From: Methanocaldococcus bathoardescens
Lineage (GTDB): Archaea > AGJL01 > Methanococci > Methanococcales > Methanocaldococcaceae
Direction of reading: 5' to 3'
DNA: 64,000 nucleotides
Assembly: GCF_000739065.1 (NCBI RefSeq)
Contig: NZ_CP009149.1
Coordinates: 1-64,000, forward strand
Positions 21,328-25,392 of this stretch are shown here, one piece after another (position 1 is the stretch's first letter; the number at the start of each line of letters is the position of its first letter). A model generated the notes under the pieces. The model did no database searches. It was not told the origin of the DNA and was given only the letters and a program-made list of their open reading frames with translations. Position numbers and translations under genes: made by a program.

Positions 21328-22560
21328 TTAAGCACCAAACTTCTCATTTCTTCCAGTTAAATCTAATAAAATTTTCATTATATGTTCTCCTTTAATCCAG
21401 TGTAAAGCTCCTTTAGCGCATGCAAATTCATTAAATTCTGTAACATCATCAACTCTAATACTCTTCCCCCAAATGACTATTGGAACTGGGTCTGCTGAGT
21501 GGTCTTTCATTTCTATTGGTGTTGAGTGGTCTCCAGTTAATACAAAATAAACTTCATCTTTGTTAATATGCTCAAATACGTAAGAAAGCATTTCATCTAT
21601 CTTCTCTAAAACTTCTTTTTTAAGTTCATATTTACCATCATGGCTTGCTTCATCAGCTCCTTTAACATTCACTAACACGAAATCATATTCTTTTAATGCC
21701 TCAATCAATGCCTTTGCCTTACCCATAAAGTTTGTTTTTGGTGTTCCTGTAGCTCCTTCGACCTCTATAACATCTAAACCAATCATTTTAGCCATTCCTT
21801 TTATTAGTCCAGTTCCACAGATGCAAGCTCCTCTCATGTTGTATTTTTCAGAGAACTTCTCTATCTTTGGAACAACTCCAGCTCCTCTTGGCAATATTAT
21901 GTTAGCAGGCGGCAACCCTTTCTTTCTTCTTTCTTCATTTATTGGGTGGTTGTTTAATTTCTCATAAACAATTCTTAATAATTTATTTAAAATTTCAGCA
22001 GTTCTTTTTGCTTCTTCTGAATTATCTAAAGGTTTTATCTCACTAACTTTAACTCCCTCTTCATGCGGGTCTCCATCACTTACTCTGCATGATAAACCTT
22101 CCCCTCTCAAAACTAAAGCTCCTCTGTATCCTTTTGAAGATTTAAAAATAACTTTAACCCCATCAATCTCTAAACCATCAATCTCTTTCTCTAATTCTTT
22201 AGCTTCTTCTGGACTTATTCTTCCAGCCCTTCTATCTAAAACAACAAAGTTCTCATCAACAGTAGCAAAATTACATCTAAACGCCACATCCCCTTCTTTC
22301 AAATCCAAACCAACACCAAATGCCTCTAAAGGACCTCTACCAGTATAAACTTCATAAGGATTGTAGCCCAAAATAGCTAAGTGAGCTGTGTCACTTCCTG
22401 GTCTTACACCAATATCTATGGCATTCATTAATCCACAAATTCCCTCTTTAGCAATTCTATCCATTGTTGGTATCTTTGCCTCTTTTAAAGGTGTTAAGCC
22501 TTTCTCATTTGGCCTATCTCCCAACCCATCTATAATAAATATAACACACTTTCCTTTCAT
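21328..22560 (-). CDS. apgM: 2,3-bisphosphoglycerate-independent phosphoglycerate mutase (archaeal)
   Basis: A ~410-aa member of the alkaline-phosphatase superfamily that interconverts 3- and 2-phosphoglycerate in glycolysis/gluconeogenesis. CVIFIIDGLGDRPN is the metal site and nucleophile region start, PGSDTAHLAILGYNP contains the catalytic Ser, and NVKGADEASHDG and LTGDHSTPIEMKDHSADPV supply metal ligands. GGTGAGGGAG before the internal ATG at 22560 favours that start over the ATG at 22575. The gene lies directly downstream of the tnpB element on the same strand, so its leader now comes from that element. Confidence 0.95.
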   Translation of the reverse strand: MKGKCVIFIIDGLGDRPNEKGLTPLKEAKIPTMDRIAKEGICGLMNAIDIGVRPGSDTAHLAILGYNPYEVYTGRGPLEAFGVGLDLKEGDVAFRCNFATVDENFVVLDRRAGRISPEEAKELEKEIDGLEIDGVKVIFKSSKGYRGALVLRGEGLSCRVSDGDPHEEGVKVSEIKPLDNSEEAKRTAEILNKLLRIVYEKLNNHPINEERRKKGLPPANIILPRGAGVVPKIEKFSEKYNMRGACICGTGLIKGMAKMIGLDVIEVEGATGTPKTNFMGKAKALIEALKEYDFVLVNVKGADEASHDGKYELKKEVLEKIDEMLSYVFEHINKDEVYFVLTGDHSTPIEMKDHSADPVPIVIWGKSIRVDDVTEFNEFACAKGALHWIKGEHIMKILLDLTGRNEKFGA

Positions 22561-22591
22561 TCTCTCCCTCACCATTATCTATCGCTAAGGA

Positions 22592-22611
22592 AGCTCCGAG
22601 CTTTAGCTCGG
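22592..22611. repeat. Hairpin at the tnpB 3' end
   Basis: CTCCGAGC-TTTA-GCTCGGAG, a perfect 8-bp stem with a 4-nt loop, just after the tnpB stop codon and before apgM. It may be the subterminal recognition hairpin of the element, part of the guide RNA that overlaps tnpB 3' ends, or a terminator. It shares stem design, loop and flanks (GGAA before, AGGA after) with 23921-23940. Confidence 0.8.
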
Positions 22612-22618
22612 AGAGGAA

Positions 22619-23710
22619 TTAAGCTTGTTTAGAAGCTACTTTTTTAGCAATATTTATTGAAGCATTCAAATCCCTATCAATCTCTAAACCGCATTTTGGA
22701 CAAACAAATATTCTCTCATTTTTTAATCTCCTATTAACATAACCACATCTACTACAGGTTTTAGAAGTATTTCTCGGAGAAATCTCAACAACTGGAACCC
22801 CTTCTAACTTTGCTTTGTATTTTATCTTTTTAATCAAATCAGCATAACTCCATATATGTAATGCCTTCCTAATATTTTTTGGTTTTGATTTATTAAGCTT
22901 ACTCTTTTTTAATCCCTTTAACTTCTCTAATACAATCCCGGCATTATACTGCTTTGCTTTTTTAACAATCTCCTTAGAAATTACATGATTAATATATTTT
23001 GAATAATTGCTAATTTTATTGCCCACTTTTGTATATTTGTTAAAGTTCCTCTTCTGTCTGCTTTGAATTCTTGCCCTATACTTTTCTAATTTCTTCTTAT
23101 ACTCTTTAACTATTTCCCCATCAAACCTTAAAATCTCCCTCCCCTTACTATCTGCAACGACAACCAAATTATAAACACCCAAATCAACACCAAACCATAG
23201 AGTTGGTTTATACGGCTCTTTTTCTTCAACTTTTATAGACAAATAAGCATAGTAATCATTACCTTCTTTTTTAATAACCAACCTTCCAAACGTCCCATTT
23301 TGTAAATATTTTTTGTATTTCTTTGGAATATATAGTGGGATAAAAACTCTCTTTCCACACAATGGGATGATTAAACCCTCATTTTCATATTTATAATCAA
23401 CTGATTTGTAAGAAACCATTAAAGTGTTAAATATTGGTTTTTTATTGGGATTTAGTTTTATAGAACTTCTTAATATCTGTATAGCCCAATTCATAGCATC
23501 TTGAAGAGAGTTGGAATATAAGTTGGGATACTTTTCCCTTAATTCTTTATATCCGTAAGAGTGGAGCTTTCTGTCTGTGATTTTTCCATCATTCCAGGAT
23601 ATATCAATCCAATCATTTACGGCATTTTTGAAATCAATTAGTGTTTTTTCTAACATAAACATTTTGTTTGTCCTTAATGGCTTTATTTTCATTTTTAATG
23701 ATAATTTCAT
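22619..23710 (-). CDS. tnpB: TnpB RNA-guided nuclease (IS200/IS605 OrfB)
   Basis: A ~363-aa TnpB, ancestor-type of Cas12. All three RuvC residues are present: Asp in WFGVDLGVYNLVVV, Glu in GIVLEKLKGLKK, and Asp in GLEIDRDLNASINI. The zinc ribbon is CSRCGYVNRRL with CPKCG. The N-terminal wedge region begins KIKPLRTNK. Start taken at the ATG of MKLSLKMK. No tnpA lies nearby. In characterised systems the guide (omega) RNA overlaps the 3' end of tnpB, here near 22580-22700, and the element end acts as the guide junction. A TATA-like TTTATATATTG (minus) lies near 23756-23766. Likely functional as a nuclease. Confidence 0.95.
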   Translation of the reverse strand: MKLSLKMKIKPLRTNKMFMLEKTLIDFKNAVNDWIDISWNDGKITDRKLHSYGYKELREKYPNLYSNSLQDAMNWAIQILRSSIKLNPNKKPIFNTLMVSYKSVDYKYENEGLIIPLCGKRVFIPLYIPKKYKKYLQNGTFGRLVIKKEGNDYYAYLSIKVEEKEPYKPTLWFGVDLGVYNLVVVADSKGREILRFDGEIVKEYKKKLEKYRARIQSRQKRNFNKYTKVGNKISNYSKYINHVISKEIVKKAKQYNAGIVLEKLKGLKKSKLNKSKPKNIRKALHIWSYADLIKKIKYKAKLEGVPVVEISPRNTSKTCSRCGYVNRRLKNERIFVCPKCGLEIDRDLNASINIAKKVASKQA

Positions 23711-23835
23711 AATAACCACAATATGTGAATTTTATATTACGCAGTATGATTGAAACAATATATAAACTTTTGCGTTAGTAAAATTTTACGCAGAATAGTA
23801 AGATTTATATATAAATAAAGCAACATTATTTATTG

Positions 23836-23951
23836 AGGGTAGCTCTGACCCTGCCCGATGACACCAACCTGTCCAATGACTCCTCGGCGACGAGGATGAG
23901 AGGGCGTTCCGTGTTGGAACCTCCACCCTTTAGGGTGGAGAGGAGGTCAGA
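23836..23951 (+). ncRNA. GC-rich structured RNA with its own promoter (candidate hgc-type or omega-like RNA)
   Basis: A ~116-nt GC-rich island in AT-rich DNA. A closing stem TCTGACC/GGTCAGA (23844-23850 with 23945-23951) surrounds GCCC/GGGC (23853-23856 with 23902-23905) enclosing hairpin TCCTCG-GCGA-CGAGGA (23881-23896, GNRA tetraloop). Two more hairpins follow, GTTCC-GTGTT-GGAAC (23906-23920) and CTCCACCC-TTTA-GGGTGGAG (23921-23940). A TATA box TTTATATATAAAT at ~23804-23816 places transcription start near 23836. It could be one of the high-GC RNAs known from M. jannaschii by GC screening, or a guide RNA scaffold of a TnpB element. Its 3' end overlaps the convergent amylase stop codon. Confidence 0.75.
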
Positions 23952-25392
23952 CAATTATAAATCCTCCAAATGCATCATGTTTTTTATCATTTTTATCTTT
24001 ATCTCCTTTTTTATCTTGGTTATAAATACTTTCTGTATCCTCTATATCATTGTTTGCTATTATGATATCTGGTTTTACAGAATTTTCTTCATTTATATTT
24101 TGTGTATCTTTTTCTTTCTGATTGTCTATAATGTTTTGATTATTTTTTGATTTAGAATTTTTGTCGATATCTTTGTTAATTTCCAATTTATTTAATACTT
24201 CTTTTATATGGTATTCAAAATCATATAAAATGTTCAAATAATTTGCATACGCGTCAAAGGGTGAATCAAAGTGACTAAAATAAGTATGAACATCCATGTC
24301 TCCAAAACCTTTAGTGCATTGATAATAAAAGTTGTCACTTGTTTGTAAAACTTTATACATCTTATAAATTTCATCAAATTTTCCTAATTTCTTTAATTTA
24401 TTTTCATTTTCTTTTATAAATACTCCAATATCCTTTAATTTTTCAAATGATATTCTCTGCATCTTATTTCCTAACCATGCACTTACATCTCTCTCAGTAT
24501 CTGCCCATGATATTGTAGAGAATTCATGCACATAAATTTCTCCTCTCGGCTCCAATCTCTCAACAACCTCACTGACATTAACAACCTCTAAATGCTCATG
24601 TTTAGCTATCTCTATAGGCAAATATCTTAAAAATTCAAATATTCCTGTTTCTTTCCAGTGATGCTCTCCAAATGTCTCATAGTCCATATAGATGTTTATA
24701 ACCTCCCCTGGTGTTGAAGCCAGCCACGTAGCATATTTATCAGCTGTTAATGGATATTGGTTCCAATCTCTTGCTGAAAACCTAAAGCCGATATCATCAC
24801 TTAATCTATAATTTCTCAGCAAAATATTCATACCATCTGGTGATTGGTAGAGATAATTTGGACTTCTCCAACCTAAAATTTTTTCTATCCCTTCTGTAAA
24901 TATTGCCTCAAACCCTAAATCTTTTGCTATCTTTGCAATTCTATTGTTGTATATTAGCTCAGTATTTCTAAATACCTTAGCTTTAAAGCCAAATATATCT
25001 TTATAAAGCTTTTTATGCATCTCAATATCTTCAATAAACTCTTCCTCACTCTCAAATAAACTTGATAATGAGTGATGATAAGTTTCAGCAATTAGTTCAA
25101 CATTTCCTGTTTTCACCAAATCTTTGAATAAATCTAACACATAATCATTAAACTCCAAAGCCTGCTCTATAAAAATTCCAGTAATTGAATAATTTACTTT
25201 AAAATCATATTCGTCAATAAGCTCTAATATCAACTCATTTGCAGGAATGTAGCATTTATTAGCTACTTTGTTAAAAATTTCTTTATTTAATTTTGTATCT
25301 ACATATTTTTCCCATAATGAATTTCCTCTCCTATTAATGTCTTTATTTAATCTGTGTGGTTGATGAACTTCGAAATTGAATGTTATTAACAT
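23947..25392 (-). CDS. GH57 alpha-amylase
   Basis: A 481-aa cytosolic glycoside hydrolase that cleaves alpha-1,4 glucans. The N-terminal TFNFEVHQPHRLNK, the nucleophile Glu in KVFRNTELIYNN, the acid/base Asp in NIYMDYETFGEHH and the WADTERDVSAWLGN segment define GH57. The last ~75 residues are a low-complexity Asn/Lys/Asp tail ending AFGGFIIV, whose stop codon lies in the GC-rich RNA element, so the original terminus may have been altered. Start chosen at the ATG after GAGATGAT. It is last in a leftward pair with the glucoamylase gene. Confidence 0.93.
   Translation of the reverse strand: MLITFNFEVHQPHRLNKDINRRGNSLWEKYVDTKLNKEIFNKVANKCYIPANELILELIDEYDFKVNYSITGIFIEQALEFNDYVLDLFKDLVKTGNVELIAETYHHSLSSLFESEEEFIEDIEMHKKLYKDIFGFKAKVFRNTELIYNNRIAKIAKDLGFEAIFTEGIEKILGWRSPNYLYQSPDGMNILLRNYRLSDDIGFRFSARDWNQYPLTADKYATWLASTPGEVINIYMDYETFGEHHWKETGIFEFLRYLPIEIAKHEHLEVVNVSEVVERLEPRGEIYVHEFSTISWADTERDVSAWLGNKMQRISFEKLKDIGVFIKENENKLKKLGKFDEIYKMYKVLQTSDNFYYQCTKGFGDMDVHTYFSHFDSPFDAYANYLNILYDFEYHIKEVLNKLEINKDIDKNSKSKNNQNIIDNQKEKDTQNINEENSVKPDIIIANNDIEDTESIYNQDKKGDKDKNDKKHDAFGGFIIV

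Follow-up and report, generated by a model that had tools for sequence, protein, structure and literature searches.

HgcC of Methanocaldococcus as the probable guide RNA of an IS200/IS605-type transposon, encoded divergently from tnpB

The first 64,000 nucleotides of contig NZ_CP009149.1 of Methanocaldococcus bathoardescens, referred to below as the window, contain a transposon-like element that carries a tnpB gene on the minus strand and, at its right end and on the plus strand, a short structured RNA of the HgcC family. HgcC is an orphan family of structured archaeal RNAs that has been known since 2002. Comparative analysis of sequences from related genomes leads us to propose that the HgcC of Methanocaldococcus is very likely the guide RNA (omegaRNA or reRNA) of an IS200/IS605-type transposon.

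Position 23950, the last of the HgcC scaffold, is also exactly the right boundary of the element, and the sequence past 23951 is therefore host flank, where an omegaRNA takes its guide. This flank differs beyond HgcC in every non-orthologous copy, and the Rfam match to HgcC passes the element boundary by 13 nt, to 23963-23964. An earlier note on this DNA had suggested that the RNA may be a stand-alone guide-type RNA derived from a TnpB element, with its guide in the reverse complement of the 3' end of the neighbouring amylase gene; comparison of copies and of empty sites identifies that sequence as host flank, and the suggestion as a whole is supported by the boundary at 23950, the empty sites and the homologues that overlap the 3' end of tnpB in sense. 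Several features that characterize omegaRNAs are present in the window, namely the position at the right end of the element, a variable putative 3' guide segment lying in host flank, a transposon-adjacent motif (TAM) at the left end and a pseudoknot between the 5' loop and the bases preceding the guide. Another one, the sense overlap with the 3' end of tnpB, is absent from the window but is present for homologues in other archaea.

The RNA, its fold and its promoter

The HgcC model (RF00062) matches positions 23835-23963 of the plus strand with a score of 122.9 bits (E = 4e-28), the gathering score of the family being 50, and no other Rfam family was matched above its gathering score in the 64-kb window. 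The other alternative of the earlier note, one of the GC-rich non-coding RNAs of M. jannaschii, is thereby answered, and both of its alternatives would be right because HgcC appears to be an RNA of that kind. The scaffold, 116 nt long and GC-rich amid an AT-rich context, has a folding energy of -50.7 kcal/mol (z = -2.98; 1 of 200 shuffles equally stable). In an alignment of 16 copies from Methanococcales its six helices have 96.2% of their cells paired and 10 pairs change on both sides, and neither shuffled (0 of 500) nor slid alignments come near the observed pairing. A structured RNA of this size on the strand opposite tnpB, with a hairpin capped by a GNRA tetraloop (GCGA) and two further hairpins, had been predicted in the earlier note, which looked to covariation in homologues for support, and all of this has been borne out. 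The last of these hairpins, P4, is a motif that is also found at the 3' ends of canonical omegaRNAs in other archaea.

The predicted 7-bp closing stem has held up in part: the pairing UCUGACC/GGUCAGA exists, but it is a pseudoknot of the 5' hairpin loop with the 3' end and not an outer stem. The loop CUGACC is complementary to the last six bases of the scaffold, GGUCAG, and 98.9% of the cells of this pseudoknot are paired in alignment A1. A compensatory change to GUGACC/GGUCAC occurs in two unrelated loci, L212 and L164, one from a Thermococci genome and one from an ANME-1 genome, and among distant homologues all six pairs can form in 35%, compared with 8% of shuffles. RNAalifold gave a different pairing, of ACCU with a 3' AGGU. 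It was dropped for the loop pseudoknot, since ANME-1 and conventional homologues lack the segment but retain a 5' loop complementary to the 3' end. A kink-turn that could bind L7Ae, likewise suggested earlier, was rejected, for the paired UGA is not conserved: the UGA at alignment columns 44-46 is invariant and the opposing GA is not. The conserved tandem G-A/A-G pairs beside a 3-nt bulge that mark an L7Ae-bound kink-turn are thus lacking.

The TATA box that had been placed at the right distance upstream of the RNA is present. Of the 22 HgcC copies examined, 14, solo and tnpB-bearing alike, have a TATA-like box that precedes the first stem by about 32-36 nt, in upstream sequences that are otherwise quite different, and the other eight have no clear TATA-like box at that position. 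Expression of HgcC RNAs has been reported, both from northern blots (the founding study, as cited) and from differential RNA sequencing in T. kodakarensis (PMC4247193). As a separate observation, a palindrome GTCGTAAT..ATTACGAC, possibly an operator, is found in the divergent tnpB/HgcC promoter regions of two other loci (L017:1436-1459 and L013:1670-1691); the window element is without the exact palindrome.

Element boundaries and empty sites

When copies are aligned with their flanks, conservation begins at CAT... on the left and, in nearly every copy, stops at ...GGAGGTCAG on the right. The pairwise identity drops abruptly at both ends, from near 1.0 inside to about 0.3 outside. The left end is abutted by TCAC, TTAC or TGAC in 22 of 23 copies and by TTGC in the remaining one, the pairwise identity of the motif being 100% at T, 91% at A and 100% at C (n = 23). 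Empty sites, sought in related genomes by joined-flank searches, are up to 97% identical and are spliced exactly at TNAC/flank (the slash marks the joint). The exact TCAC/flank splice was found for L007 and L018 in G007 and for L003 in G006, G000 and G001. At the site of the window element, genome G001 reads CTCCCTCAC/GTAATTATAAATCC where the window reads CTCCCTCAC/element/ACAATTATAAATCC, and the site is also empty in G003 and G006. The element therefore spans 22573-23950 and was inserted 3' of TCAC without target duplication. Three characteristics of IS200/IS605 elements are thus present: the target is not duplicated, the insertion lies 3' of a fixed short motif, and both ends have subterminal hairpins. 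The HgcC model also gives a weak match around the left end, at 22466-22636.

TnpB and the orientation of the RNA

The TnpB of the element matches the Pfam families Cas12f1-like_TNB (2.4e-25) and OrfB_IS605 (1.7e-9) and, in the PDB, ISDra2 TnpB (2.5e-14), its solved relatives including Cas12f. An AlphaFold 2 model (mean predicted local distance difference test score 80) has full-length Foldseek matches to Cas12f/TnpB complexes with E values to 6e-19. The three RuvC residues are invariant in the clade to which this TnpB belongs and the CxxC pairs of the zinc ribbon are conserved, giving the full domain set of a TnpB nuclease with the RuvC D-E-D triad. Seven TnpBs that are encoded divergently from HgcC make up this single clade, which spans Methanococcales and ANME-1 and has a support of 99/97; the loci come from three Methanocaldococcus genomes including that of the window, two genomes of a second Methanococcales genus and two of ANME-1, and HgcC adjoins tnpB in all seven. 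The plasmid TnpBs that are best by coverage are remote (<30% identity), and no match to the element end motif was found in viral contigs.

A search of 13 other archaeal genomes with the HgcC model gave matches in all 13. In the first set of loci retrieved, seven had a tnpB alongside in non-divergent orientation, and in all seven the match overlaps the tnpB 3' end in sense, the canonical place of an omegaRNA, although loci outside Methanococcales were reached via HgcC or end-motif matches and such orientation counts are not an unbiased census. At L199 the omegaRNA family sot0042 (RF02656) and HgcC models match the same RNA. A sense omegaRNA of the window tnpB, on the minus strand, was also considered, and neither Rfam HgcC nor sot models gave a match on that strand between 22000 and 25500, with E values of up to 1 allowed. 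The window RNA, being divergent from tnpB, represents a variant arrangement and not the canonical one. A side observation concerns L183, from an Archaeoglobales metagenome-assembled genome (G043), where a TnpB of another clade has a divergent upstream right-end hairpin without the full HgcC fold.

Table 1. Coordinates of the element, its RNA and its gene in the window
Feature	Position	Strand	Basis
Complete IS200/IS605-type element, 1,378 bp, CAT...GGTCAG, no target duplication	22573..23950	.	Empty sites G001, G003, G006; boundary profile over 23-25 copies
TCAC, target/transposon-adjacent motif (TAM), left flank	22569..22572	+	Left-end alignment, n = 23; present in G001 empty site
Left end with hairpin CTCCGAGC-TTTA-GCTCGGAG, same strand orientation as right-end hairpin	22573..22620	+	Sequence; aligned left ends
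tnpB, 366 aa, divergent from HgcC; RuvC D179, E265, D350 intact	22619..23719	-	Pfam, PDB and fold match
TATA box of HgcC promoter, TTTATATATA	23804..23813	+	Sequence; recurrence among copies
HgcC scaffold, proposed omegaRNA scaffold	23835..23950	+	RF00062, 122.9 bits; covariation
5' hairpin P1 (GGGTAG/CTGCCC)	23837..23856	+	Pairs with changes on both sides
P1 loop CUGACC, pseudoknot 5' strand	23845..23850	+	Pairs with 23945-23950
Central stem P2 with GCGA tetraloop	23871..23905 (inner stem 23881-23896)	+	Inner-stem covariation
Hairpin P3 (GTTCC/GGAAC)	23906..23920	+	Alignment of HgcC copies
Right-end hairpin P4 (CTCCACCC-TTTA-GGGTGGAG)	23921..23940	+	Alignment of HgcC copies
GGUCAG, pseudoknot 3' strand and right boundary of element	23945..23950	+	Conservation near 1.0, falling to about 0.3-0.4 at next base
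Proposed 16-nt guide ACAATTATAAATCCTC, host flank, reverse complement of amylase 3' end	23951..23966	+	Flank variability; G001 empty site TCAC/GTAATTATAAATCC

Distribution of HgcC copies

In Methanocaldococcus, 19 HgcC copies above the cut-off are found in 7 of 14 genomes, 6 genomes being without any match, and two genomes of the second Methanococcales genus hold six further strong copies. Most copies other than that of the window are solo, consisting of the RNA and both element ends (about 210-285 bp) without tnpB. One and the same site is occupied by a 259-bp solo element in G005 and by a 1,366-bp tnpB-bearing element in G010, with ends that are 93-97% identical, from which it follows that one derives from the other by internal deletion or by replacement. 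Five copies (L009, L022, L023, L028 and L015) are degenerate.

Two solo copies of G006, L025 and L029, have a different IS605-type RNA end (GGAGAGTATGTCAT), share the left end and the TTAC motif, and probably represent a second family of guide-only mini-elements. Four genomes (G041, G043, G048 and G036, metagenome-assembled genomes of Desulfurococcales, Archaeoglobales, Ignisphaera and Thermococci) contain some 25-32 HgcC-like matches each, and many of the matches fetched from them have no tnpB nearby, making up large sets of possible solo guide RNAs.

The position of the insertion relative to the neighbouring genes is also of note. The annotated ATG of apgM (22569-22575) comes from the element: it is the CAT of the left end, and an older GTG follows one codon later. 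The amylase gene takes its TGA stop from the terminal TCAG of the element read backwards (23947-23950); at the empty site of G003 the two genes abut or overlap. TCAC followed by the first C of the element is the complement of the archaeal Shine-Dalgarno sequence GGTGA, and for 12 of 23 insertions the start codon of an open frame lies at most 17 nt away on the other strand, compared with 24% of TCAC sites in the window. It is possible that insertion favours gene 5' ends in a manner that spares the ribosome site.

Proposed mechanism and alternative explanations

According to the mechanism that we propose, RNA polymerase would start near 23835 from the TATA promoter of HgcC itself and read outward, across the terminal hairpin and the pseudoknot strand into the host flank, which would supply a guide of about 16 nt. 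The divergently encoded TnpB of the same element may then bind the HgcC scaffold and, after excision, cut the emptied donor joint, where TCAC is followed by the flank matching the guide; refilling of the break from the sister copy that still carries the element would restore it, in a form of homing. A donor-site cut with refilling from a sister copy was proposed for ISDra2, in which some 16 nt of flank form the end of the reRNA (PMC8612924). The occupied site would be spared because TCAG, and not TNAC, precedes the guide sequence there. A search of the genus for other targets of guide plus TAM returned only the occupied junction and sites with two mismatches. We further consider it reasonably probable that the TnpB clade of Methanococcales and ANME-1 has uncoupled its omegaRNA from the tnpB message and turned it into a separate, divergent gene driven by its own promoter. 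Elements that lost tnpB could then live on as guide-only mini-elements, persisting or spreading with TnpB acting in trans, which would make several guides possible in one genome.

Several observations weigh against this picture. No match to the Y1 transposase TnpA (PF01797) exists in the element or anywhere in the genome of the window, so that current mobility is doubtful and would need TnpA in trans. Genome G003 carries HgcC without a TnpB of the divergent clade, its only TnpB being remote (31% identity), and some copies may thus be fossils, be inactive or use another protein. The pseudoknot is near-invariant within Methanococcales and its covariation therefore rests on the two cases given above. 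To these must be added the route by which the loci of other archaea were reached.

The presence of solo elements in genomes without a clade TnpB, and the degeneration of several copies, would also be expected if HgcC were an omegaRNA by descent whose solo copies now act as regulatory or decoy RNAs, titrating or repressing TnpB, or are fossils. We regard such a change of role as unlikely, though with a real chance of being true, since tnpB-bearing copies retain intact RuvC residues together with an intact RNA, and the guide-end pairing and the boundary are preserved in most copies. It is considerably less probable that the TnpB of the window clade is guided by a sense RNA of the conventional kind, made from the 3' end of its own gene, while HgcC serves other TnpBs. 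The RNAs of other archaeal loci with an overlapping match do lie there, but the sense strand of the window gave no model match, a sense read-through would exit on the TAM side with the wrong flank, and HgcC is the constant neighbour of the divergent-clade TnpBs.

HgcC as a guide RNA must also be weighed against two explanations in which the RNA guides nothing for TnpB. The similar hairpins that the left and right ends bear on the same strand, like the ends of IS605-type elements, could mean that the conserved segment is only a DNA recognition end, with single-stranded hairpins for TnpA, and that its transcript is incidental. This is very improbable because the left end needs just about 50 nt, to which HgcC adds a covarying multi-helix fold of 116 nt, a pseudoknot and a TATA box, because homologues overlap the omegaRNA position and because HgcC transcripts have been reported (PMC4247193). 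Finally, HgcC has been described (PMC4247193, PMC5732400) as stand-alone, detected by northern blots and of unresolved function, as would befit a host non-coding RNA of unrelated function, such as an L7Ae-bound guide or a structural RNA, beside which the tnpB element was inserted by chance. There is hardly any room for this explanation: of the 14 genomes of the genus 6 lack HgcC and others carry several copies, the empty sites contradict it, the unit begins and ends at element boundaries, the same divergent arrangement with tnpB recurs in ANME-1, and the kink-turn pairing is not conserved.

Relation to known systems

An omegaRNA is normally processed from the tail of the tnpB mRNA. The closest likeness is to the omegaRNA/reRNA of ISDra2 TnpB (PMC8612924, PMC10097598), with a 116-nt scaffold, a 3' guide of about 16 nt from the right flank (a length that for HgcC would follow by analogy), a TAM on the left side and, in both RNAs, a pseudoknot between the loop of stem 1 and the last bases of the scaffold (PMC10097598). 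Unlike in ISDra2, HgcC is divergent from tnpB and has its own promoter, and the TAM is TNAC instead of TTGAT. The haloarchaeal sotRNAs (RF02656, RF02657), which are now called omegaRNAs, are likewise archaeal RNAs of IS200/IS605 elements, but they overlap the 3' end of tnpB in sense (PMC12558985).

In the open-access literature, only PMC4247193 was found to link HgcC to a transposase and no paper was found that calls HgcC an omegaRNA. That study mapped HgcC RNAs of the same Rfam family inside transposase genes of T. kodakarensis in 2014, three of them starting inside such genes in the same direction; unlike in the window, these are sense RNAs (antisense in the cited P. furiosus case), and the accessible text gives neither a function nor a guide. 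An orphan Rfam RNA has been shown to be a TnpB guide RNA before, namely the RAGATH-18-derived reRNAs of IS607 TnpB, which differ from HgcC in belonging to IS607, in lying downstream of tnpB and in having been tested experimentally (PMC11061315). The solo HgcC elements resemble the PATE/MITE-type derivatives and differ from them in the proposed guide-RNA cargo and in the promoter that is recognisable in most copies. Non-autonomous IS200/IS605 derivatives of that type are short and have both ends and no transposase; the term occurs in PMC3119063 and PMC7290912.

The proposal provides a testable function for an archaeal RNA family that has been open since 2002, and it points to a source of small hyperthermophile TnpB enzymes whose guide scaffold is known and whose TAM is predicted to be TNAC. 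It also describes a TnpB arrangement that is off the rule, in which the guide RNA would be encoded on the opposite strand under its own promoter instead of being the processed tail of the tnpB mRNA. Nuclease and guide would then be expressed separately, as they are in CRISPR-Cas12, and the TnpB clade of the window may therefore be a natural parallel to that step.
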